47,973 nt of DNA from IMG/VR virus record IMGVR_UViG_3300035698_003703, positions 1-47,973 of that record, one strand, 5' to 3'. Both the position numbers and the translations under genes were made by a program. This DNA comes from a virus. The notes beneath the pieces are model-generated. The model ran no database searches. It had not been told where the DNA came from and worked only from the letters and a program-made list of their open reading frames with translations. The stretch's first letter is position 1, and the number at the start of each line of letters is the position of its first letter. This document shows, piece by piece, positions 9,752 through 34,063 of this stretch.

Positions 9752-12700
9752 ATGGGCGCGGTACTAAAGCCTGAGACACCGCAGGAGATTCTTGCTCGCC
9801 TGCGTGAGAAGGCCAATCCACAACTGGCGCTTGCGCGGTTGCGTAGCACCGAGACGATCACTGCAGGCGGTGACGAGCCGGTAGAAGGCCGCGACATCAC
9901 GGTTGGTGGAGTTGAGCCAGTCGAGGACCGTCGTCAACCTGCACTCGGGATCCCTACCGCAGTACACCAGGGGACGCTGGCACCACCGAAGGTAACACCG
10001 ATTGAAGAGGCTGGACCCGTACGTCGTGGCGCAGCAAGCGGAGCCGCGTTCATCGAGCAGGCTGCTGGCGCGTTCGCATCTGGCTTTGGTCGAGAAACAC
10101 GTCGTGGCACCGAGAGGGCGCGAGAGGCGCTGCCTGGGTCCGCTATACAACCACGGGATACAGGTGGTCCCGGCAAGGTCTCCGAGTTCCTTGAGCGTAA
10201 AGGAACCGAGATGGTAGAGCAGGGCCGTGCGCGGGAGGAAGTGATTCCCGGCCCGAAGTCGTTATCTGAGATAGTACAGAACCCTAATCTCGGTGATGCG
10301 CTTGACTGGGCAGCGTTCAGTGTGTCGTCCGGTGTCGTGTCGAGCATCCCGAGTCTTGTTGGTGGAGCCACAGGCTTCGCAGCCGCTGGCCCTGCTGGCG
10401 CTTGGCTGGGTGCTGCCGCTCCTGGCTATATCCTGAATCAGCATGAAGTGCGACGTGCGTTGCTGGACGAGGGCGTTAGCGAGGACGATGCGGAGCAACT
10501 GTCTGCGTTCGCGGCTGTTCCGATGGCGGCACTCGATGCGCTGCTTCCGTCCCGGCTTGGCTCGAAACTCGCTGGACCGATACGCGACAGAGCGATGAAG
10601 GCGATAGTAAAAGCCGTCATGGCAGAAGCCGCCCGTGGTGCGCCGATGGAAGGTATCACCGAGACGCTACAGAGTTTCATTGAGCAGGGGACCACGGCGG
10701 CAGTTACCGGGAAACCAATCGATGTTGCGCAGGCTCTCGAAGAAGGGCTCGCTGGACTCCTGACAGGTGGCGTCCTGAGTGGTGTCACTGCGGCGGCTGG
10801 TGGAACCGCCACTGAGGTGCCAGGGTCAACCGTAGAGGATGTCTCAGGCACTCCCGCCCCAGGGGACGAAGCACGTAGACGGCTCGCGGCCATACGTGAC
10901 GAAGAGATGCAGAAGCCCACCTTCGAGCGCAGGGGCGTTCCTAAGCCGCCAGAACTGACCATCGAGCAACGTGCCGAGGCGCTCCCGAAGCGTGCGCCAG
11001 TCGAGGTAACCCCAGAGGAGGCGCTTGCGAATATTAGGCGTGCTCGGGAAGAGGAAGCTGAAGTTGGTGTAGGGCAGGTTGGCAATGACGCATACTCTGA
11101 ACCTTTTGATGTGCGTGGTGGCGTTGATCCTTGGAATGAAACGAACGAGAATCAACTAGAATCTGTACGGAAAATGAGTTCAACTGACCTACTGTCTAAA
11201 CCGATCATTGTTGTTGAAGACATTGGCAACGGTTCGATAATGCTGGACGGTCATCACCGATTGGCGATAGCCAAAGAGAGGGAACTGGGTGAGATACCAG
11301 CATGGGTGGTGCCAAGTGAGGTTTTCGAGAGGATCGTCGCCGACGAGTTCGATGGAGACCTACCTCCGCGTTCGCGTGACATTCTGGAATACATCAACTT
11401 CGACGGTCGTAGTATCGATGAGGTCGCACCAGACACGCCACAGGATAATTTAGCAAGGCAGCAGGGCACCCAACTCCGCCACACCGCAGCGGTCCCCAGC
11501 CCGTTCGAGCGTCCGACTAAGGTTCAGAGATACGAAGAGGCTGGAGTACCAATCGGTGATACGTCGAAACCACAGGGACTCTACACAAACCCCGTTGGGA
11601 TGGAATCGCCCCACGAAGACCTCGGAGGCGAGCGGCACGAGTTAGACGTAAGTCCCGAGGCCAATGTACTGGAAGTGGACGCGACTGACCTCGTAAGGAC
11701 TAACCGTGGCACAGTGGGGCAATCGGCGGGGATAGCGGCACTCCGGAACTTGCTAGGCAACGAAGAGACGTCTGCGTTGCTCGGTATGCATAGGGAAACA
11801 TTGCAACTCGAACTTGAACGCCGCTGGCCCGATGTTGAGTGGGGCAAGTACTACGATGAGCAGGAGATGCTTGAGGGTCACGCTGGCTTGTTGGCGAGGG
11901 AAAAAGGCTACGACGCTATTTGGGCACCGGATCGCACGGCCCCTGAACACAACGAGTATGTGGGTCTAACTCCGGAGGCATTCGCTCCCGCCACCGAACT
12001 CCGTCACACAGTAGGAGTCCCCAGCCCGTTCAAGGGCAAGAAGAAACAGCGCGTCACCCCGCCACGTCCCGGCCAGCCAGCGGCTGAGAGCAAGCCTGCT
12101 ACCCGTAGGCGGCTGACTCTTGCGCGGGATATGATCGAGGAACTCGCGATCCAGATCGAGCCAGGCAATCGGGTTCAACTCGGTGACGAGTTCAAGGCTG
12201 AGATCGGCAAGATAATGAAAGCCACTCAGTTGCCAGCGCGGTTGAAGGGGATCTTCGACGTGTCTGGTAAAATGACAACACACAAGCGAGCCAAGGATCT
12301 CATTGAGAAAACGCTCAATAAGGTGGAGGACGAACTCCATCGCACAGCGGTTGACAATCTGCAAAAGGCATACACCAAGGCGCTGACGGTCGGGTTGCGT
12401 CCTCCGTTCCTCGCTGACGTGAAGGTGGCCGTAGAGGATATCGGGTTTGCGGAGATGAACCAGAAGACGCGAGCGGCGATGTTCGCGACGGCTAGGTACC
12501 TGGCGCAGAATCCCGATAACCCAATCCCGAAGTCAGTGCTTCGCAACATCAGGAAGCTAGACAAAGCGAAGCTCAAGGAAATGTCGGCAGACGATATCTT
12601 CGTAGTCCTCGACGCGGTAGAGACGGCAATTCATATGAGCCGCATCGAGAATAGAGTGCTGGCAGAGGAGCGTAAGGAGACGCTGGATCAGTTGCGTGCC

Positions 12701-15343
12701 AAGGTCTCTGCGGATGCCGAACGTCTGCCGGAACTGAAGCGCAAGGGTGGCACCCGCTCGCTGATAGACCGGATCATGAAACGGGATCTTGAGGGTATGC
12801 CCGTTCGCGGAGCAGTAGGGATATACCTAAAAGAGTGGGCCTCTCGGCCAGAGATTTTAATGGAGCACCTGGGTGAGACGCTGCGACATCTCGGCTGGGA
12901 ACAGGTCACCGTACAGGGACAAAACAAAGAACTGCAATTCGTTAACGACCAGAAGGCCGCGCTGTTCGAGGCGTACAGGAAAGAGGGGTTGACGCTAGGG
13001 CCGAGGGTGAAGCCGTATCAGGGCGGGAAGCAAGGCATTCTCGAATACCGAAAGCAGTCGAAGAAGTTCGAGAAGTGGCGCAAGAAGTCGTTCAGAATCC
13101 CCGCTCGCAAACGGGGCAAGAAGGGACAGTTTGCCGCCATTAGGCGACTAGTGCAGATCAGTCGTGGTGAGGCGATGTCCTTTCTCGGCGCGATCAGAGA
13201 TCCGTACATACTTGAGTTGTTCTATCGCGAGGGTATTACGCTGGACAGGTCCGGCCAATCTTTCCTAGTTGACGACCAGTTCGTAGCCGATGTCAAGAAC
13301 GCGATGGGCGCAAAGGAAAAGAACCTCGTAGACTACGTCGTCGGTGAGTTCAACGGCCCGCTGCCGGGGTTTATGAATCCGGCATGGGTGAAGGTGTACG
13401 GGAAAGAGGTCGCCACCCGAGACAATTACTGGCCCGCGTCAATTGACAGGACTCGCGCTCAGACATCCAAAGACCCCATTGAGCAGATGGCGCTGGAGAA
13501 ACAATCGAGCTTGGAAGGATGGGGCCATCTGAAGGGGCGCACGGGTGCTGCCGCGCCGATGCGGATTGGAGACATACTCGATACGTACCTGAATCACCTT
13601 TCGTGGGCTGCGCGAATTGGTGCGTATCTCGCACCAGCTAGGGACTTCCTTTCCGTCATGGGCGATCCAGATGTAAAAGAATCGATTCTGTCGCGGGTGG
13701 GTAAGTTCGGCTACAACCGTATCGTAGACTCGGTCAAGAAGCAGACGACGCCACCAATAGAGACCAGTGCGCCGGGGCGAGTGCTGCGGAAGTTCTTGCG
13801 ATCGTTTGGTGGCTCGGTGTTGGGTCTCAGGATAATGACGCTATTCGTCAATCCATCGGGGCTGTCAATCTCCGCGTCGTACCAAAAGAACGGGGGAGTG
13901 CATCTACTCAAGTCCCTCAAAGAGCCGTTCACGCCCAAGACTGCAAACCGCATCATCCGACTGGCTCAGAAACACTCTCCGTACTGGACTGCGCGGTATA
14001 GCAACTTCATCTTCGAGACCACGTCGGGCCTGGTGTTGGAACGAAGTAGGTCGTATGGCCCTCCCGGTGTGACGGAGTTGGGATTAGAGCCGCTACAGCG
14101 GTCTGATATGTTCGGTGCGATCATCCGGTGGAAGATGGCCGAACTCCATATCAACGAGACGACCAAACTCAAGCAAGGCACCCAGGAGTACTACCACGAA
14201 GTTGCGCTTGAGTGGGAGCGGTTGATGTATCGCGGTGAGAACACTGGGCACGGTGGCGACATGACAGGCGCGATTGCGTTCGGTAAAGATCACGTTTGGT
14301 TCGCGCCGTTTGTGACGTTCACGTCTTCGGTGTCGAAGATATTCACCGCAGGCGTTCGGGGTCAGTTGCAGGTTGCGCGTGGACAGATGGAGTCTGCGCG
14401 TGGAGATAAGAAGGCAGCGAGCGCCTCACGGAAGGCAGCGGCTACATCCCTGGCTGCGGTACTGGTGGCTCAGTTCTACGTCTCTGTCGCCCGCGAGACG
14501 AGAAGGTCGTTGTTGGGTGACGACGACGACGAGCCAATGGTCACGCGGGTGCCCAAACGAATGGTGAAGGACTATCTCGGCTTCATCCCGATATTCGGGA
14601 AGCTGCTCGGCCCACTATGGAACAAGGCTATGGGTGGAAGTGGTTACGTCTACCCAATGAGTGCAGCCGAGGGAGAGTTGCTAAACTGGGGGCAAACTGC
14701 GGTCGAGCTTATCGATGGCACCCAGAAGCTAATAGAGGGTGAGTTGGATTCGAGCGGTGAGAACGCCGGATGGAAGAAGCTAGAGAAGGGCTTCGAGGGT
14801 ACGTTCGAGGCAATCGCTCATATGCGTGGCATCCCATACGGGTGGCAGGACATCCCTCGCATAGTCAAACGCCTCTTCCCCAATGACCCCGACTTCGAGG
14901 CATTGATGCGGGACGAGGGCAAGTCGGTTCCGATCACGCAGGAGAACCTGCGCATACTTAGGGCGATTGCGGAGGACAACGACGAGGAGTTCCGCAAGTA
15001 CGTCGAGAGGCTGTCAGCGAAACGCGAGCGCCCCACCGAGTCCGATGTGGTGGCTATCGTCAACCGAGAATTTGGTAAGTTTACGAAGTATGAGCCGGGG
15101 GAAGACGCACGCAAGGCGAAGGAAGCTGAACTCGCCGCGATACCCCTGACGCCTCGTAAACGGTTCCAGGGGTTGCGATGGAGGCTTGGCCTGGACGGAT
15201 TGTCTCAGGACCGGGAGCAGAGATCTGAGTTCCTTGAGTACGTGGACCTAAAGCTAGCCGAACGTGCTGAGTTGCGTGAGGCCGCTGAAGACATGGTGAT
15301 GCGCAACAGAGACATCATCAGGTCAACACCGAGGAAACGATGA
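9752..15343 (+). CDS. Giant polyvalent ejection protein (1863 aa) with ParB-like and ART-like domains
   Basis: The largest gene. Residues about 180-360 contain hydrophobic Gly/Ala-rich segments (VVSSIPSLVGGATGFAAAG) and a GITETLQSFIEQGTT element typical of phage polyvalent proteins. Residues about 480-520 match the ParB/sulfiredoxin-like fold (IMLDGHHRLAIAKEREL). Residues about 585-745 resemble an ADP-ribosyltransferase-type domain (VSPEANVLEVDATDL, then GYDAIWAPD and EYVGLTPEAF). This last domain lies between two LRHT-x-x-VPSPF linkers. The remainder is helical, with a HVWFAPFVTFTSSVSKIF segment and an FIPIFGKLLGPL segment near the end. I infer packaging in the head and delivery into the host with the DNA. 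No transglycosylase domain was seen. Domain calls need profile searches. Confidence 0.65.
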   Translation: MGAVLKPETPQEILARLREKANPQLALARLRSTETITAGGDEPVEGRDITVGGVEPVEDRRQPALGIPTAVHQGTLAPPKVTPIEEAGPVRRGAASGAAFIEQAAGAFASGFGRETRRGTERAREALPGSAIQPRDTGGPGKVSEFLERKGTEMVEQGRAREEVIPGPKSLSEIVQNPNLGDALDWAAFSVSSGVVSSIPSLVGGATGFAAAGPAGAWLGAAAPGYILNQHEVRRALLDEGVSEDDAEQLSAFAAVPMAALDALLPSRLGSKLAGPIRDRAMKAIVKAVMAEAARGAPMEGITETLQSFIEQGTTAAVTGKPIDVAQALEEGLAGLLTGGVLSGVTAAAGGTATEVPGSTVEDVSGTPAPGDEARRRLAAIRDEEMQKPTFERRGVPKPPELTIEQRAEALPKRAPVEVTPEEALANIRRAREEEAEVGVGQVGNDAYSEPFDVRGGVDPWNETNENQLESVRKMSSTDLLSKPIIVVEDIGNGSIMLDGHHRLAIAKERELGEIPAWVVPSEVFERIVADEFDGDLPPRSRDILEYINFDGRSIDEVAPDTPQDNLARQQGTQLRHTAAVPSPFERPTKVQRYEEAGVPIGDTSKPQGLYTNPVGMESPHEDLGGERHELDVSPEANVLEVDATDLVRTNRGTVGQSAGIAALRNLLGNEETSALLGMHRETLQLELERRWPDVEWGKYYDEQEMLEGHAGLLAREKGYDAIWAPDRTAPEHNEYVGLTPEAFAPATELRHTVGVPSPFKGKKKQRVTPPRPGQPAAESKPATRRRLTLARDMIEELAIQIEPGNRVQLGDEFKAEIGKIMKATQLPARLKGIFDVSGKMTTHKRAKDLIEKTLNKVEDELHRTAVDNLQKAYTKALTVGLRPPFLADVKVAVEDIGFAEMNQKTRAAMFATARYLAQNPDNPIPKSVLRNIRKLDKAKLKEMSADDIFVVLDAVETAIHMSRIENRVLAEERKETLDQLRAKVSADAERLPELKRKGGTRSLIDRIMKRDLEGMPVRGAVGIYLKEWASRPEILMEHLGETLRHLGWEQVTVQGQNKELQFVNDQKAALFEAYRKEGLTLGPRVKPYQGGKQGILEYRKQSKKFEKWRKKSFRIPARKRGKKGQFAAIRRLVQISRGEAMSFLGAIRDPYILELFYREGITLDRSGQSFLVDDQFVADVKNAMGAKEKNLVDYVVGEFNGPLPGFMNPAWVKVYGKEVATRDNYWPASIDRTRAQTSKDPIEQMALEKQSSLEGWGHLKGRTGAAAPMRIGDILDTYLNHLSWAARIGAYLAPARDFLSVMGDPDVKESILSRVGKFGYNRIVDSVKKQTTPPIETSAPGRVLRKFLRSFGGSVLGLRIMTLFVNPSGLSISASYQKNGGVHLLKSLKEPFTPKTANRIIRLAQKHSPYWTARYSNFIFETTSGLVLERSRSYGPPGVTELGLEPLQRSDMFGAIIRWKMAELHINETTKLKQGTQEYYHEVALEWERLMYRGENTGHGGDMTGAIAFGKDHVWFAPFVTFTSSVSKIFTAGVRGQLQVARGQMESARGDKKAASASRKAAATSLAAVLVAQFYVSVARETRRSLLGDDDDEPMVTRVPKRMVKDYLGFIPIFGKLLGPLWNKAMGGSGYVYPMSAAEGELLNWGQTAVELIDGTQKLIEGELDSSGENAGWKKLEKGFEGTFEAIAHMRGIPYGWQDIPRIVKRLFPNDPDFEALMRDEGKSVPITQENLRILRAIAEDNDEEFRKYVERLSAKRERPTESDVVAIVNREFGKFTKYEPGEDARKAKEAELAAIPLTPRKRFQGLRWRLGLDGLSQDREQRSEFLEYVDLKLAERAELREAAEDMVMRNRDIIRSTPRKR
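11472..11506 (+). repeat. Direct repeat flanking ART-like cassette (copy 1)
   Basis: 35 bp encoding part of an LRHTAAVPSPF linker. It matches 11997-12031 at 30 of 35 positions by direct alignment. The two copies bracket a 525-bp period inside the giant gene. Confidence 0.75.
11997..12031 (+). repeat. Direct repeat flanking ART-like cassette (copy 2)
   Basis: 35 bp encoding LRHTVGVPSPF. It is the partner of 11472-11506, in the same reading frame, so gain or loss of the segment between them would preserve the frame. Confidence 0.75.
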
Positions 15344-18309: not shown

Positions 18310-18972
18310 TCATAGGTTCAATACCCCCTGGCTTAGTCGTTCAGCGGCGATCTCGCAATACTTCTCCTCGATCTCAATGCCGATTGCCTTGCGGCCTAGG
18401 TTCTTGGCAGCTACCAATGTGGTGCCTGATCCCATGAAGGGATCGAGGATGGTGCCGAAACCCTTTGCTTTACAGATACACCACTCCATTAGTCGAACTG
18501 GCTTTTGCGTTGGGTGGAAGTGTTGTCCGTGTTCATCGCCACGCACTAAACCCATCCACCGATTGCGGAACATCCGCACAGCGCCGGTTATGTTAGTCCA
18601 GGCCAACTCAGCCTCCCCTAGTGGCCAACCCTCCATGTCTTCCAATCCTTTCCGTTTGTCCCACACGATCCAGCCGTTAGACGGCGGAAGTTTGGCGGCA
18701 TAATTATTGGCACCGAACAACACCAACTGGGGAAAGTGCAACAGGAAAGACGGATCAAAGGGTTCGTCGTCGCCGTGGACTGGCACCCTTTCACCGACTG
18801 ATGTACGCGGGCCCGTCACGGTACCACCTGAGAAGCGTGAGTTATCCACTGCAGCACTAATGCCATATGGGGGGTCGGTCAGTACCAAGTCGATATTGGA
18901 AAGCGTCGGCACGATTTCCCGTGCGTCCCCGTGGTATATCTTGATCTCGTCTTCATTGTAGTAGGGCTTCAC
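18310..18972 (-). CDS. Beta-class DNA methyltransferase (N6-adenine or N4-cytosine)
   Basis: 220 residues from GTG 18972, chosen because it overlaps the upstream stop as GTGA, has GGAGATG upstream, and the protein then starts at the conserved [15 protein letters not shown] segment. Motif IV is TDPPYG (32-37), and the AdoMet motif I (DPFMGSGTT, 177-185) follows it, so the motif order is that of beta-class amino-methyltransferases. [12 protein letters not shown] (153-164) is the usual motif X-side element. It probably modifies phage DNA against restriction. It is last in the leftward operon, directly after an HNH nuclease gene. Confidence 0.88.
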
Positions 18973-19277
18973 GCTTTCATCTCCAAGTAGAGTTGATACA
19001 AACGTCGGGCCTCGGATTGCATTTGTTCTACAGTGACGCCGTACCTCGCGGTGATTGCCGACACGCCATTCTGGTGGATTCTGGCATGGCAACGGTGTTC
19101 TAACACAATGATGTTCTCGATGTCACCAAAGCGCCGTTTACCGCGCAGATGGTGGCCGACCAGTGAGTGATCCGTAATCCCGCAGAAGAAGCAACTGACC
19201 TCCTGCATGTCGCACAGGTGGCGTATATGTTCGACGTACTCCTCGTCGTGCCGGTCCAGTTTCGGGCAGGGGATCAC
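18969..19277 (-). CDS. HNH endonuclease
   Basis: 102 residues from GTG 19277, whose GTGA overlaps the upstream stop; longer upstream starts would run far into that gene. A zinc-type CFFCG pair (near residue 29), a [12 protein letters not shown] segment and a [13 protein letters not shown] segment form the His-Asn-His fold, with the second Cys pair apparently incomplete. It could act in packaging, recombination or as a restriction partner of the overlapping methyltransferase (GTGA overlap at 18969-18972). Which of these applies is not decided by the sequence. Confidence 0.78.
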
Positions 19278-23189: not shown

Positions 23190-23503
23190 TCGGAATCCTC
23201 CTTGGGGAGTGAGACGTTGTAGGTCCTTGCGTACTTTTCAACGCAACGGACAGCCATTAACGCCACCTGACGACCCCCTGCGTAGTGCGCGTTACCACGA
23301 TCCTGATTCCACAGGTCGCCCATCTGTTTACCCATGCGTCTACGGTCTAATACAATTTCCTTGATGCACCCCTCGAGCCTCGCCACGCGGTCCTCTGCGT
23401 CCTCTAGTCGCTCCTCTACCGTTGGCTCTTGCGCCTCGGCGTGCTCGGCCTCGTCGCGGGCTACGGCGGAGTTGCTGTTGTCGGGGTAGTCGGGTGTTTG
23501 CAT
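23186..23503 (-). CDS. Acidic coiled-coil protein overprinting the C5-MTase tail
   Basis: 105 residues. GAGGA precedes ATG 23503. The N-terminal half is acidic and helical (EAEHAEAQEPTVEERLED, ARLEGCIKEIVLDRRR). Its first 164 bases also encode the Arg-rich C-terminus of the C5-methyltransferase in another frame. No domain recognised. Confidence 0.6.
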   Translation of the reverse strand: MQTPDYPDNSNSAVARDEAEHAEAQEPTVEERLEDAEDRVARLEGCIKEIVLDRRRMGKQMGDLWNQDRGNAHYAGGRQVALMAVRCVEKYARTYNVSLPKEDSE

Positions 23504-24206
23504 TGTGAGTTCCTCTGCGTTCGACTTGTTGAAAGATCCAATATGCGACCTGGGGAACTACTGCCATTCCACACTCTCTAATTCTGTCCATCCCGTAGGG
23601 AATCCCATCATCCACTCCCAGAGCAGCGGATGGGGGTGACCACCGGTGCGTCCGACCAGCTTTTGTAGGTTCCGGCAGCTTCGCCACTTCGCCATAGAGG
23701 GAGCCAATTGGTTCGCTTTTGCCGTTGGTCGCGGTAACAAAGATGCGCGATCCGTGGTGGGGTGCCCCAAAGTGAGAGGCTGGCAGGCGTAGTGGCACGC
23801 TGGCATACCCGAGTTCTGCAAGGGACTGCCGCACGACGGGCACCCACCGCTTCCAGGCCGCTCCGTCAACATTCTCAACCACGACCCAGTCTGGTACGAG
23901 TCGCCCGATGATGCGGTGCATCTGGAACCAGAGCCCAGATCTGTCTCCCTTGAGTCCATCGTTTCGTCCTCTCGCCACATCGCTCAGATCCTGGCAGGGG
24001 AATCCGCCACAGATCAAATCGACACAGTCGCTGTCATTTGGGTGCCATTCGGTGATGTCGCCGACACTGCGGCTTTCAGGGAAATGCTGCGCGAAGACGG
24101 CCAGCGCGTGTTCCGCGACATCGGAGTGCCACGTTGTCTCCCAGCCCATCCAACGGGCTGCGAGATCGAAGCCTCCTATTCCCGAGAACAGCGAGCCAAT
24201 CTTCAT
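23340..24206 (-). CDS. C5-cytosine DNA methyltransferase
   Basis: 288 residues. Motif I is GSLFSGIGGFDLA (4-16), motif IV is GGFPCQDLS with the catalytic Cys (near 71), and motif VI is VVENVDG. The C-terminal motif X-side element is AVVPQVAYWIF, with Met in place of the usual Asn just before it (CGMAVV). The target-recognition part is short. The last about 54 residues are Arg/Gly-rich and overlap the next gene by 164 nt in another frame. It probably methylates phage or host DNA to evade restriction. No partner nuclease with a matching motif was identified. Confidence 0.9.
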   Translation of the reverse strand: MKIGSLFSGIGGFDLAARWMGWETTWHSDVAEHALAVFAQHFPESRSVGDITEWHPNDSDCVDLICGGFPCQDLSDVARGRNDGLKGDRSGLWFQMHRIIGRLVPDWVVVENVDGAAWKRWVPVVRQSLAELGYASVPLRLPASHFGAPHHGSRIFVTATNGKSEPIGSLYGEVAKLPEPTKAGRTHRWSPPSAALGVDDGIPYGMDRIRECGMAVVPQVAYWIFQQVERRGTHNANTRLPRQQQLRRSPRRGRARRGARANGRGATRGRRGPRGEARGVHQGNCIRP

Positions 24207-30172: not shown

Positions 30173-30201
30173 AAGCTAGGGCATATGCCCTCAGATGTCA
30201 A
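30173..30201 (-). promoter_or_regulatory. Promoter of LPD29 cassette
   Basis: Minus strand: perfect -35 TTGACA (complement of 30196-30201), 17-bp spacer, -10 TAGCTT (complement of 30173-30178, only 3 of 6 consensus). It lies upstream of the zinc-ribbon gene. The weak -10 suggests a regulated promoter. Confidence 0.6.
30178..30191. promoter_or_regulatory. Perfect 14-bp palindrome (operator candidate)
   Basis: AGGGCATATGCCCT is a perfect inverted repeat lying in the spacer of the leftward cassette promoter and 46 bp upstream of the terminase gene. A bound repressor would block the promoter. No second copy was noticed elsewhere in the window. Confidence 0.7.
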
Positions 30202-30236
30202 GGGGTGAGATTTTCGGAATTTGTTCGGAGGTGAGT

Positions 30237-30833
30237 ATGAATGGAAATGGAAATGCGAAGAACGGCAACGGGAAGCTGAATCCCAAGCAAGAAGCCTTCG
30301 CTCGTGAGTTGGTGATCGACTTCAACGTCACAAAGGCCGCTATTCGGGCTGGATATGCCAAGACCGGCGCTCATGTCCAAGGACATCACCTCCTACAAAA
30401 CCCTAAAGTAATCGCGAAATATCGTGAATTAGTCGAGGCTCGTAACAAACGCTGTGACTTCGACGCTGATCGCGCCATGCTCGAGGTGAAGCGGATTGCG
30501 CTATCGGACATCAGAGACGCAGTGGCGTGGCACCCTGATCGCGGTGTGGTGTTCATGGATTCAGATTCTCTGACCCCAGACATCGCGGCCTGCGTCAAAA
30601 AGGTGAAGTCGAAGACGGTGTACAAAAGCGTCAAGGACGACGACAACCTAATTGAGGTGCAGCTTGAGATCGAGTTCTACGACAAGGTCAAGGCGCTCGA
30701 CCAGGCCCACAAGCTGATGGGTGCATACAACGAGACGATCTGGCTCGGCGACGAGAAGGACAAACCCCAGCCAGGGGTCATGCTTGGCGAACGCAAACCG
30801 CTGAAACTGCTGAAGGATGGGACAGATGGCTAA
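30237..30833 (+). CDS. terS: Terminase small subunit
   Basis: 198 residues from ATG 30237, chosen over 30195 because GGAGGTG lies just upstream. The N-terminal HTH, LNPKQEAFARELVIDFNVTK then AAIRAGYAKTGAHVQG, with LLQNPKVIAKYRELVEA after it, is the Terminase_2-type small-subunit signature. A beta segment and an oligomerisation region follow. It recognises the packaging site and presents DNA to the large subunit. The first Gly/Asn-rich residues (MNGNGNAKNGNGK) are unusual. First gene of the packaging/late region. Confidence 0.88.
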   Translation: MNGNGNAKNGNGKLNPKQEAFARELVIDFNVTKAAIRAGYAKTGAHVQGHHLLQNPKVIAKYRELVEARNKRCDFDADRAMLEVKRIALSDIRDAVAWHPDRGVVFMDSDSLTPDIAACVKKVKSKTVYKSVKDDDNLIEVQLEIEFYDKVKALDQAHKLMGAYNETIWLGDEKDKPQPGVMLGERKPLKLLKDGTDG

Positions 30834-31216: not shown

Positions 31217-31376
31217 GAAGGAGTGTTGGGGAATTGAAGACGCCACCATCGAGGACGTGAGGGCGTGGTTGAAGGAGTTCGGGTATGTACCGCCAGTCAA
31301 GTATGGATCGCTCAGTAATACAGAAACTAGCAGTGCGGGTCACCCCCCCCGCCTGGAGCTTCCCGAGGACCAGTGA
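31191..31376 (+). CDS. Small hypothetical protein upstream of terL
   Basis: 61 residues from ATG 31191 (GTG 31182 alternative); GGTGGGG is nearby. One helix (TIEDVRAWLKEFGYVP) then a disordered tail. A run of eight C bases (31343-31350) near its 3' end is prone to length change. The stop overlaps the terL GTG start. Confidence 0.5.
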   Translation: MQLCKRVAEKECWGIEDATIEDVRAWLKEFGYVPPVKYGSLSNTETSSAGHPPRLELPEDQ

Positions 31377-34063
31377 CCGCCACCATCAACCCTGAACTTG
31401 CCGCCGCAGTCGAAGAGTTCACCAACCCGTACTGCAGGGCCAACCAACTCCGAGATCCAAACCACGGTGGGCCGCACGCCTTCTGTCCGTACTCGCAGGA
31501 ACAGTGGGATTTCACCGAGTCGTCAGCTACTGAGGTGTTCTTCGGAGGGGCGGCTGGACCCGGTAAGTCGGTTCTTTTGGTCAACGAGGGTCTCAGGCAA
31601 GTAGACAAAGAAGGGTACACCGCCGTCCTGTTCCGCCGTACATTCGATGAGCTTGCCCAGATCATCGAGATGAGCCACGCGACGTTCCCGGCACTGGGTG
31701 GCGTCTTCACTGGCGGCCCGCCTAGCTGGCGATTCTACGGCCGCGACCAGTCAGCCTCGCCAAACGTGATGCGCGGCAAGAGGCCAATCTCTCAATACGA
31801 CTTCAAGTACTGCGCTCGCGACCAAGACAAGTATCGGTACCAGGGCAAGGCGTACAGCTACATCGCGTGGGATGAACTGACTCAGTACCCCAATATGAGC
31901 GTGTACGACTACCTATTCAGTCGGTGCCGGCCGTTCAAGCAGGATACGGGCATCTTCAGCTACGTGCGATCGGCATCGAATCCAGGCGGGCCGGGACATC
32001 CAGTCAGACAAGGCGAGGTTCTGACTCCGCGTGGATGGCAGGACATCTGGAGCCTTTGGATCGGCGATCCGATAATGACGATCACTGACAAGGGTGAGAT
32101 AGTAGAGACGCACATCGAGCAGCGCCACGTACAGGAAAACGTCAGAAAACTTGTTCAGGTGAACGCTCGTGGTCTCTTTATGGAATGCTCGCCGGACCAC
32201 AGTGTAGCTAAGGTCGGCGGTACCAAACAGAACCGTGACACCAATCACTCACTCATACCATTCAATGAATTGCCTGGGCAGGCTGTGATTCTCCGCTCCG
32301 GTTGGTGGGATGGGGAGCGGGTTGGCCGGTTCGACGTGCCGTACTGTCCGACACGGAAGCGCAAGGTGAAGCAGCCTAAGTCGCTGTGTGGCATGGACTA
32401 CGCTGCTTTGGTTGGCTGGATGCTGGCTGAAGGCTGTACAATCGACCGTGACAAGGCGTTCTTGATAGCGCAGAGCAAGCCGCACGGACGACGCATCCTT
32501 CGCCGTCTACTGGCTTGCTGTGGATTCAAGGTGTCGTGGTCGGATACTCAGGCGACAGTGTACGCAGCCGACTGGTGGGCACACTTCAAGCGGTTGGGTA
32601 AGTCTCGCGAGAAGCACATACCATACAGGCTCAAACAAGCTGTGCCAATGGAGTTACACGCGCTACTGATGGCCTTGATGGAGGGCGACGGGCATTGGAC
32701 GCGACGTGGACTGTCGGGCGAGTATTACACCATCAGCAAGCAGTTGGCTGACGATGTGTGCGAGGTGGCGTTCAAGCTCGGGTATGTGGTGCATCTGTCG
32801 AGCAGACAACGGAAGAACAGGCGTGGACTGTCGTACTGTGTGTCGTTCAAGAAGGTGAAGTCTGGCGGCACGGAGCTTCTGACCGGCCAGCACAAATACA
32901 ACGTCAAGACGGAGACCAAACGACGCTCTGACATTCAGACGGTGCCAAACTCCGACCAAACCATCTGCCTGGGAGTGCCTGAGACTCACGCCATGATCAT
33001 CCGGCAGCAGGGCTCTGTGTGGGTATCGGGCAATTCATGGGTCAAGGAACGGTTCATCGAAGGGCGGGTGCCAGGCCAGCAGTATGTGGAGATTGCCGAA
33101 GATCCGGTCAGCGGCAAACAACTCAAGTATACTCGGCAGTACATCCCAGCAACGCTCGACAGCAACGACATCCTGATGAACAACAGCAACTACGAGCTGA
33201 TGCTGCTGATCGAGTCAGACCCAGAGATACGGAAGGCTTTGCGGCACGGCGACTGGGACATCATCGCCGGTATCATGTTCTCGGAACTCCGCGAGAACAT
33301 CCACAAGGTAGAGGCCAGGCCGCCACTTAGCTGGACATCCAAAGAGGTCGCGGTCGATTATGGGTACGGCAACTTCACGCACGCGCTCTGGATCGAGACA
33401 ACCACCGGGGTAGAGGACCGTCCGCGTTCCACGGTATATCGTGAATTGGTGATCAAGGGTATCCCGCCACCGCTGATAGCTCAGATGATCACTGAGATGA
33501 CCCCACCGGCCGAGAAGATCAGCAAGATGACATGGGACACCAACGCATTCGCGACACACGACGGCGGACCGGATCCGATAGAGCAGATGATGTCTCGGTT
33601 CAGGGCAGACGGGAAGGAACACGACCGCAAATGGCCTATCGTTGGTGCCGTGAAGGGCGCAGGATCGCGTCAGAGGGGCTGGAAGCTCCTACACACGTAC
33701 TTCTTCGCCAAACGGGCTGGAGGGCCGCTGGCGACGGTTATGGACAACTGTCCGGTACTGTGGCGGCAGTTGACTAGCCTGATACGTGGGATTGAGCCGC
33801 ATGACGTTGAGGATCTCGAGCCGCACCAGGTGGATCACGGCGCTGATGCATTCCGGTACTGGGCACAGGGTAGGCCTCACCTGGCGGATATGACACCGGA
33901 CGAGTTGATTCTAACCGACCCAGACTTCAACTATCAGGACGAGCCGAGAACGCACAAGGCCCGTCAGATCGAGCGGGCACGGCAGGAGAAGAAGGCTGGC
34001 TTCCCGGCTGTGCGCGTTGGACAGGGACCAAAGAAGAAACCGAAACGCAACAGACCATTTTAA
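31373..34063 (+). CDS. terL: Terminase large subunit containing an intein
   Basis: 896 residues from GTG 31373 (GTGA overlap). ATPase: Walker A GGAAGPGKS (58-66), Walker B YIAWDE (163-168), coupling motif SNPGGPGH (202-209). Nuclease: AVDYG with Asp662, TWDTNAF, and VDHGADAF with Asp821 and Asp825 (RNase H-like acidic site). Between His209 and Ser555 lies a 345-residue intein, at the conserved site where most TerL proteins read GGPGH-x-WV. Spliced, the enzyme would be about 551 residues, the usual size. It drives DNA packaging into proheads and cuts the concatemer. Confidence 0.92.
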   Translation: MTATINPELAAAVEEFTNPYCRANQLRDPNHGGPHAFCPYSQEQWDFTESSATEVFFGGAAGPGKSVLLVNEGLRQVDKEGYTAVLFRRTFDELAQIIEMSHATFPALGGVFTGGPPSWRFYGRDQSASPNVMRGKRPISQYDFKYCARDQDKYRYQGKAYSYIAWDELTQYPNMSVYDYLFSRCRPFKQDTGIFSYVRSASNPGGPGHPVRQGEVLTPRGWQDIWSLWIGDPIMTITDKGEIVETHIEQRHVQENVRKLVQVNARGLFMECSPDHSVAKVGGTKQNRDTNHSLIPFNELPGQAVILRSGWWDGERVGRFDVPYCPTRKRKVKQPKSLCGMDYAALVGWMLAEGCTIDRDKAFLIAQSKPHGRRILRRLLACCGFKVSWSDTQATVYAADWWAHFKRLGKSREKHIPYRLKQAVPMELHALLMALMEGDGHWTRRGLSGEYYTISKQLADDVCEVAFKLGYVVHLSSRQRKNRRGLSYCVSFKKVKSGGTELLTGQHKYNVKTETKRRSDIQTVPNSDQTICLGVPETHAMIIRQQGSVWVSGNSWVKERFIEGRVPGQQYVEIAEDPVSGKQLKYTRQYIPATLDSNDILMNNSNYELMLLIESDPEIRKALRHGDWDIIAGIMFSELRENIHKVEARPPLSWTSKEVAVDYGYGNFTHALWIETTTGVEDRPRSTVYRELVIKGIPPPLIAQMITEMTPPAEKISKMTWDTNAFATHDGGPDPIEQMMSRFRADGKEHDRKWPIVGAVKGAGSRQRGWKLLHTYFFAKRAGGPLATVMDNCPVLWRQLTSLIRGIEPHDVEDLEPHQVDHGADAFRYWAQGRPHLADMTPDELILTDPDFNYQDEPRTHKARQIERARQEKKAGFPAVRVGQGPKKKPKRNRPF
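32000..33034 (+). other. TerL intein with LAGLIDADG homing endonuclease
   Basis: Residues Pro210 to Asn554 of TerL. The N-terminal splicing part begins PVRQGEVLTPRGWQDIWSLW, and a block B-like ECSPDH (271-276) carries the conserved His. Two LAGLIDADG motifs: LVGWMLAEG (346-354) and LMALMEGDG (432-440). A block F-like VPETHAMIIRQQG follows Cys532, and the C-terminus is VSGN (Asn554) followed by extein Ser555. The first residue is Pro, not Cys or Ser, so the N-terminal shift of standard splicing is not possible as read. The frame is fully open, so the element may be active. Confidence 0.9.

Follow-up and report, generated by a model that had tools for sequence, protein, structure and literature searches.

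A proline-initiated intein in a phage terminase, derived from class 1 inteins and possibly splicing through an internal cysteine

Where does an intein that begins with proline come from, and by what route might it splice? The question is raised by the IMG/VR virus record IMGVR_UViG_3300035698_003703, whose positions 1 to 47,973 form the window, that is, the whole stretch of 47,973 nucleotides analysed here. A single open frame of 896 amino acids (31373-34063, plus strand), located just downstream of terS (Terminase_2, E 3e-29; 30195-30833), matches the phage terminase large subunit (TerL) at both ends and contains all of the TerL ATPase and nuclease motifs, together with an insert at the point NPGGPGH^SWV of this otherwise well-conserved protein. 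No second TerL was found within the virus record besides the intein-bearing one. The features are as follows.

31373..34063, plus strand: terL, coding for the large terminase subunit and interrupted in frame by the intein; GTG start, 896 codons; phrog_979 (E 7e-29), phrog_2 (E 1e-14).
31373..31999, plus strand: N-extein, TerL 1-209, closing with ...GGPGH; contains Walker A (GGAAGPGKS), Walker B (YIAWDE) and the C-motif (SASNPGG).
32000..33034, plus strand: intein, Pro1 to Asn345, 345 residues, in frame; predicted HINT domain with inserted LAGLIDADG endonuclease, from empty-site relatives, family alignment and fold.
32000..32002, plus strand: codon CCA of Pro1 (A:1); Cys (TGY) in 42/42 collected relatives.
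32189..32200, plus strand: block B, Ser64-Pro-Asp-His67 (SxxH); TxxH in the relatives; B:12 is Val69.
32408..32434, plus strand: LAGLIDADG motif 1, LVGWMLAEG, acid Glu144.
32663..32692, plus strand: LAGLIDADG motif 2, LLMALMEGDG, acid Asp230; Pfam LAGLIDADG_3 at E 0.005 in the window, with 34/40 family members matching.
32960..32989, plus strand: block F, Thr-Ile-Cys323 ... His330; F:4 Cys and F:13 His, with F:2 and F:3 differing from the family Val-Tyr.
33026..33037, plus strand: block G and C-terminal junction, Ser-Gly-Asn345 followed by Ser+1.
33035..34060, plus strand: C-extein, TerL 555-896; SWVKERF and three nuclease acids (AVDYGYG, WDTNAF, DHGADAFRYW).

Elsewhere in the window, a 1863-residue open reading frame (9752-15343) matches virion RNA polymerase and DarB-like families weakly and over part of their length, and two DNA methyltransferase genes (18310-19092 and 23340-24206, minus strand) run in the opposite direction to the structural genes.

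The initial annotation had described TerL residues 210-554 as an open 345-residue insertion, Pro210-Asn554, at the GGPGH motif, and this is confirmed by relatives without it: the TerLs of two viral contigs (L006 and L007, 48% and 42% identical) align to residues 1-209 and 553-896, and their uninterrupted site, GGPGH^GWVKERF, corresponds exactly to GGPGH^P...N^SWVKERF of the window. The two LAGLIDADG motifs claimed there were found (LVGWMLAEG, LMEGDGHW), and the initial Pro, the block F cysteine Cys532 and the GN-Ser junction were likewise borne out, corresponding in intein numbering to Pro1, Cys323 (F:4) and Asn345 followed by Ser+1, which is Ser555 of TerL. A start of the intein at His209 was rejected, as GH (or GN/GR) precedes the insertion point in empty-site TerLs and in nearly all same-site inteins. 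The structure predicted for the insert by AlphaFold2 with 40 family members is confident (pLDDT 92.5, pTM 0.92), and its best Foldseek matches are the endonuclease-bearing inteins TliVMA (E 1e-18), PhoVMA, PI-SceI and PI-PfuI, with E-values ranging to 2e-12. The in-frame insert thus lies at a conserved site with empty-site homologues, adopts a predicted HINT fold and contains blocks A, B, F and G. On this comparative and model-based evidence it is confirmed as an intein, with a HINT splicing domain and a LAGLIDADG endonuclease, for which splicing activity itself is predicted. The insert is not a product of chance, given the empty-site relatives, the fold matches and the presence of inteins at the same site in public viral contigs.

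Same-site inteins in other phage TerLs were found among viral contigs using a DNA pattern for the C-terminal junction, and a profile of these inteins then recovered further relatives from viral contigs and GTDB genomes. The phage TerL intein family so collected comprises 42 relatives, 28-54% identical to the window intein and inserted at NPGG-GH^, two residues earlier (NPYG^SGHNW) or in the Walker B region (YHGH^SYPWIGFEEL). All 42 have Cys1, TxxH, Ser at G:5 and a terminal Asn, while Cys at F:4 and Gly at G:6 are each present in 41 (the remaining F:4 residue is Asp); judged by first residue and TxxH, the family belongs to class 1. Members from IMG/VR and GTDB (L024, 54% identical; L025; L030; L104, a Dokdonella fugitiva contig) share with the window intein the site, the architecture, the blocks, the F:4 Cys and the SGN^S/T end; the difference lies in Cys1 and TxxH, against which the window intein has Pro1, SxxH and six more deviations at near-invariant splicing positions. 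The nearest inteins in annotated phage records, those of Gordonia phage GMA6 TerL and Corynebacterium phage P1201 ThyX (class 1, approximately 23-24% identity), share Cys F:4 and SGN^S and differ by Cys1 and by other host sites. A block A gap seen against these two is an artefact of their distance; inteins from the same site are equal in length. A single-sequence intein search of viral contigs gave no matches, the patterns being too specific, and a plasmid search returned distant TerLs only.

Some relatives carry at least three inserts in one TerL, at Walker A, GPGH and C-terminal sites (L018, 4259-5305; L022, whole TerL ORF), and the L022 insert after HGHEY, which starts SIKSST and ends CNC before WIGFEEL, has an abnormal intein C end. 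The sole collected member with Asp at F:4 (L040, 85-1149) has the third-lowest splicing-domain profile score.

Pro1 is unique in the family as collected. A block A pattern for the GH^/GN^/GR^ site with TGY as codon 1 matched 43 contigs among 2.9 million viral contigs; with a codon 1 that starts with A, C or G, or is TCN, it gave no matches in the same contigs, which perhaps do not cover close records of the window virus. Run against the window itself, the non-Cys pattern does give a match. In a tree of 43 inteins, covering the window intein and its family, the window intein is nested among Cys1 relatives, and Pro1 would therefore have replaced Cys1; on the evidence of this tree, it is a loss of Cys1 inside a class 1 lineage. 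No Pro1 intein is described in the literature searched, and the first residues of 1701 class 3 inteins (PMC7891396) fall outside that search.

The loss of Cys1 is accompanied by other changes, and their distribution is uneven. Near-invariant positions were taken as those with at least 95% conservation across the family. Of the 22 in the splicing domain, the window intein has changed 8 (C1P, V39I, G49R, T64S, G319D, V321T, Y322I and F332M), as compared to at most two in any of 40 relatives, and of the 16 in the endonuclease part, meaning the rest of the intein, it has changed none; nor is any of the 19 conserved columns of the TerL extein, for which a 90% threshold was used, changed (Fisher p 0.012 for splicing domain versus endonuclease, 0.0002 for splicing domain versus endonuclease plus TerL). 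In the profile comparison, the splicing domain of the window intein has the lowest score in the family, and its endonuclease score exceeds the family mean. On a fixed tree, its terminal branch measures 0.87 for the splicing domain and 0.54 for the endonuclease; no other branch of appreciable length has so high a ratio. The 345 intein codons contain no stops or frameshifts, and His B:10, Cys F:4, His F:13, Asn G:7 and Ser+1 are kept. By these sequence measures the splicing domain alone is remodelled, with TerL and the endonuclease under normal constraint.

Such a pattern, the counts of which are those of one sequence, fits adaptation around a lost nucleophile and is compatible with partial loss of splicing as well. 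Splicing may have been lost or nearly lost, with C-cleavage at most, in which case the phage would depend on occasional splicing or on complementation, unless the genome sequenced is itself defective. Pro1 is incapable of an N-S shift, several invariant splicing positions are altered, and eight changes in one domain could represent decay; moreover, early inteins lacking Cys1 have been argued to splice poorly and to be kept by complementation, and a decayed class 3 intein has been described (PMC3196547). Against this stand the unloosened constraint on both the TerL extein and the endonuclease, the uninterrupted reading frame and the retained catalytic His, Cys, Asn and Ser+1. Full loss is further argued against by the fact that TerL is essential, intact and the sole TerL found in the record. 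We consider loss of splicing unlikely, if still a serious competitor.

We slightly favor the reading in which a class 1-derived TerL intein has swapped Cys1 for Pro and most likely still splices via Cys F:4, in a class 3-like manner. Against this reading, every cited test in which residue 1 of a class 1 intein was replaced non-conservatively ended in blocked splicing (PMC3196547), and Trp B:12 and Thr G:5 of class 3 are missing. If splicing occurs here, its first step cannot be that of class 1, Cys323 being the likeliest nucleophile. The data show the sequence, the predicted fold, the ancestry, the residues kept and the distribution of constraint; both the occurrence of splicing and this role of Cys323 are what we infer. 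His67 (B:10) and Ser64 (B:7) would strain and polarise the His209-Pro210 bond, which Cys323, a residue already carried by the family, would attack to form an internal branched thioester. The N-extein would then be transferred to Ser+1, Asn345 would cyclise with the aid of His330 (F:13), and an O-N acyl shift would yield intact TerL. The residues that this route requires (B:10 His, F:4 Cys, G:7 Asn and Ser+1) are all present, and it is the likeliest way for the intein to work because these residues are retained, because TerL and the endonuclease show normal constraint, and because the AceL NrdHF intein sets a precedent. A further point against it is that a class 3 attack would here have to break an X-Pro bond, a tertiary amide, of which we found no described example in the literature searched.

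The AceL NrdHF split intein (PDB 6ZGQ, PMC7891396) is the best mini-intein match of the family profile in the PDB (E 5e-5). It is a proven class 3 intein with Ala1, Ser B:7, Met B:12, Cys F:4 and no His G:6, in which C124A or C124S abolished splicing, S65T was neutral and T144A (G:5) caused an approximately tenfold loss (PMC7891396). With the window intein it shares the absence of a nucleophile at position 1, Cys F:4, Ser B:7, the absence of Trp B:12 and His G:6, and Ser+1; it differs in having Ala1 and Thr G:5, in being split and without an in-frame endonuclease, in its RNR-beta host, and in that its splicing and mechanism are proven. The WCT class 3 inteins (mycobacterial DnaB1, MP-Be DnaB and mycobacteriophage TerL1-c/d/e) likewise combine the lack of an N-terminal nucleophile with Cys F:4 and Ser+1, but the window intein has neither their Trp B:12 nor their Thr G:5 and comes from a Cys1 family.

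Assignment to a class is correspondingly mixed. The window intein shares descent with Cys1 relatives, yet Pro1 (CCA) is not the Cys, Ser or Thr of class 1. It would count as class 3 under the working definition of no Cys1 with Cys F:4 (PMC7891396), and would not under the WCT signature, whose other two residues are Trp B:12 and Thr G:5 (PMC5222942), here Val69 and Ser343; among 1701 class 3 inteins, 6.1% deviate at the former position and 4.6% at the latter (PMC7891396). As to membership in the monophyletic class 3 clade, the tree of family inteins shows a position among Cys1 relatives. Since the two standards disagree, we treat it as an intein of class 1 descent that probably works like class 3, rather than as a member of class 3. 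The class 3-like mechanism put forward in the initial annotation is upheld in part: a non-class-1 first step is required if splicing occurs, Pro1 is unique in the family as collected, and the WCT Trp is, as had been remarked, missing from its expected place. Two of the clues, Cys F:4 and the GN-Ser junction, are not signs of class 3, because they are traits inherited from the Cys1 family (41-42 of 42 relatives); Thr G:5 is absent as well, and the intein sits in a Cys1 clade.

The missing N-terminal nucleophile together with Ser+1 would also suit a class 2-like route, in which Cys323 takes no part and Ser+1 itself attacks the His-Pro bond. Class 2 inteins do lack an N-terminal nucleophile; every one described, however, is a KlbA ortholog that has Ala1, Ser G:6 and Cys+1 (PMC4031507), in contrast to the TerL host, Pro1, Gly G:6 and weaker Ser+1 of the window intein, which moreover retains Cys F:4, and we regard this route as improbable. 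Equally doubtful is an error of sequencing or assembly, or a fresh mutation, concealing a true Cys or Ser codon in an ordinary class 1 intein: the record is metagenomic, the relatives are all Cys1, and a path through Ser ends in a single transition (TCA to CCA), but TGY to CCA takes three substitutions, Ser1 occurs in 0/42 relatives, the TCN pattern has 0 matches, and the seven other splicing-domain deviations are independent of codon 1.

Returning to the favored class 3-like reading, a second lineage may offer a parallel. The RNR-beta of Pectobacterium phage phiTE (L143, 1159-3222) holds an intein with Cys1, Thr B:7 and Cys F:4, located just ahead of (T)IH. The AceL NrdHF intein precedes (S)MH at what seems to be the same position, and the phiTE intein is thus a candidate class 1 sister of it. 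If the site is shared, two lineages have lost Cys1 and both have Ser at B:7 where their relatives have Thr. What is new here, as judged from sequence comparison, is the TerL intein family, the finding that Pro1 is unique among its collected members, and the concentration of changes in one domain. We give about an even chance that, within this family, the window intein has independently gone over from class 1 to a class 3-like mechanism, as a natural intermediate that has Pro at the splice junction and lacks the WCT Trp and Thr. If true, such an intermediate would mean that inteins with Cys F:4 are able to lose Cys1 and yet keep splicing, and if splicing occurs, the X-Pro scissile bond would be chemically unusual and useful for intein engineering. 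With the Pro1 intein nested among Cys1 relatives that already carry Cys F:4, and its essential host gene normally constrained, the derived and ancestral types lend themselves to direct comparison. The insert is probably a rare natural splicing element that has switched to another cysteine within it; otherwise it would be one on the way to losing splicing.
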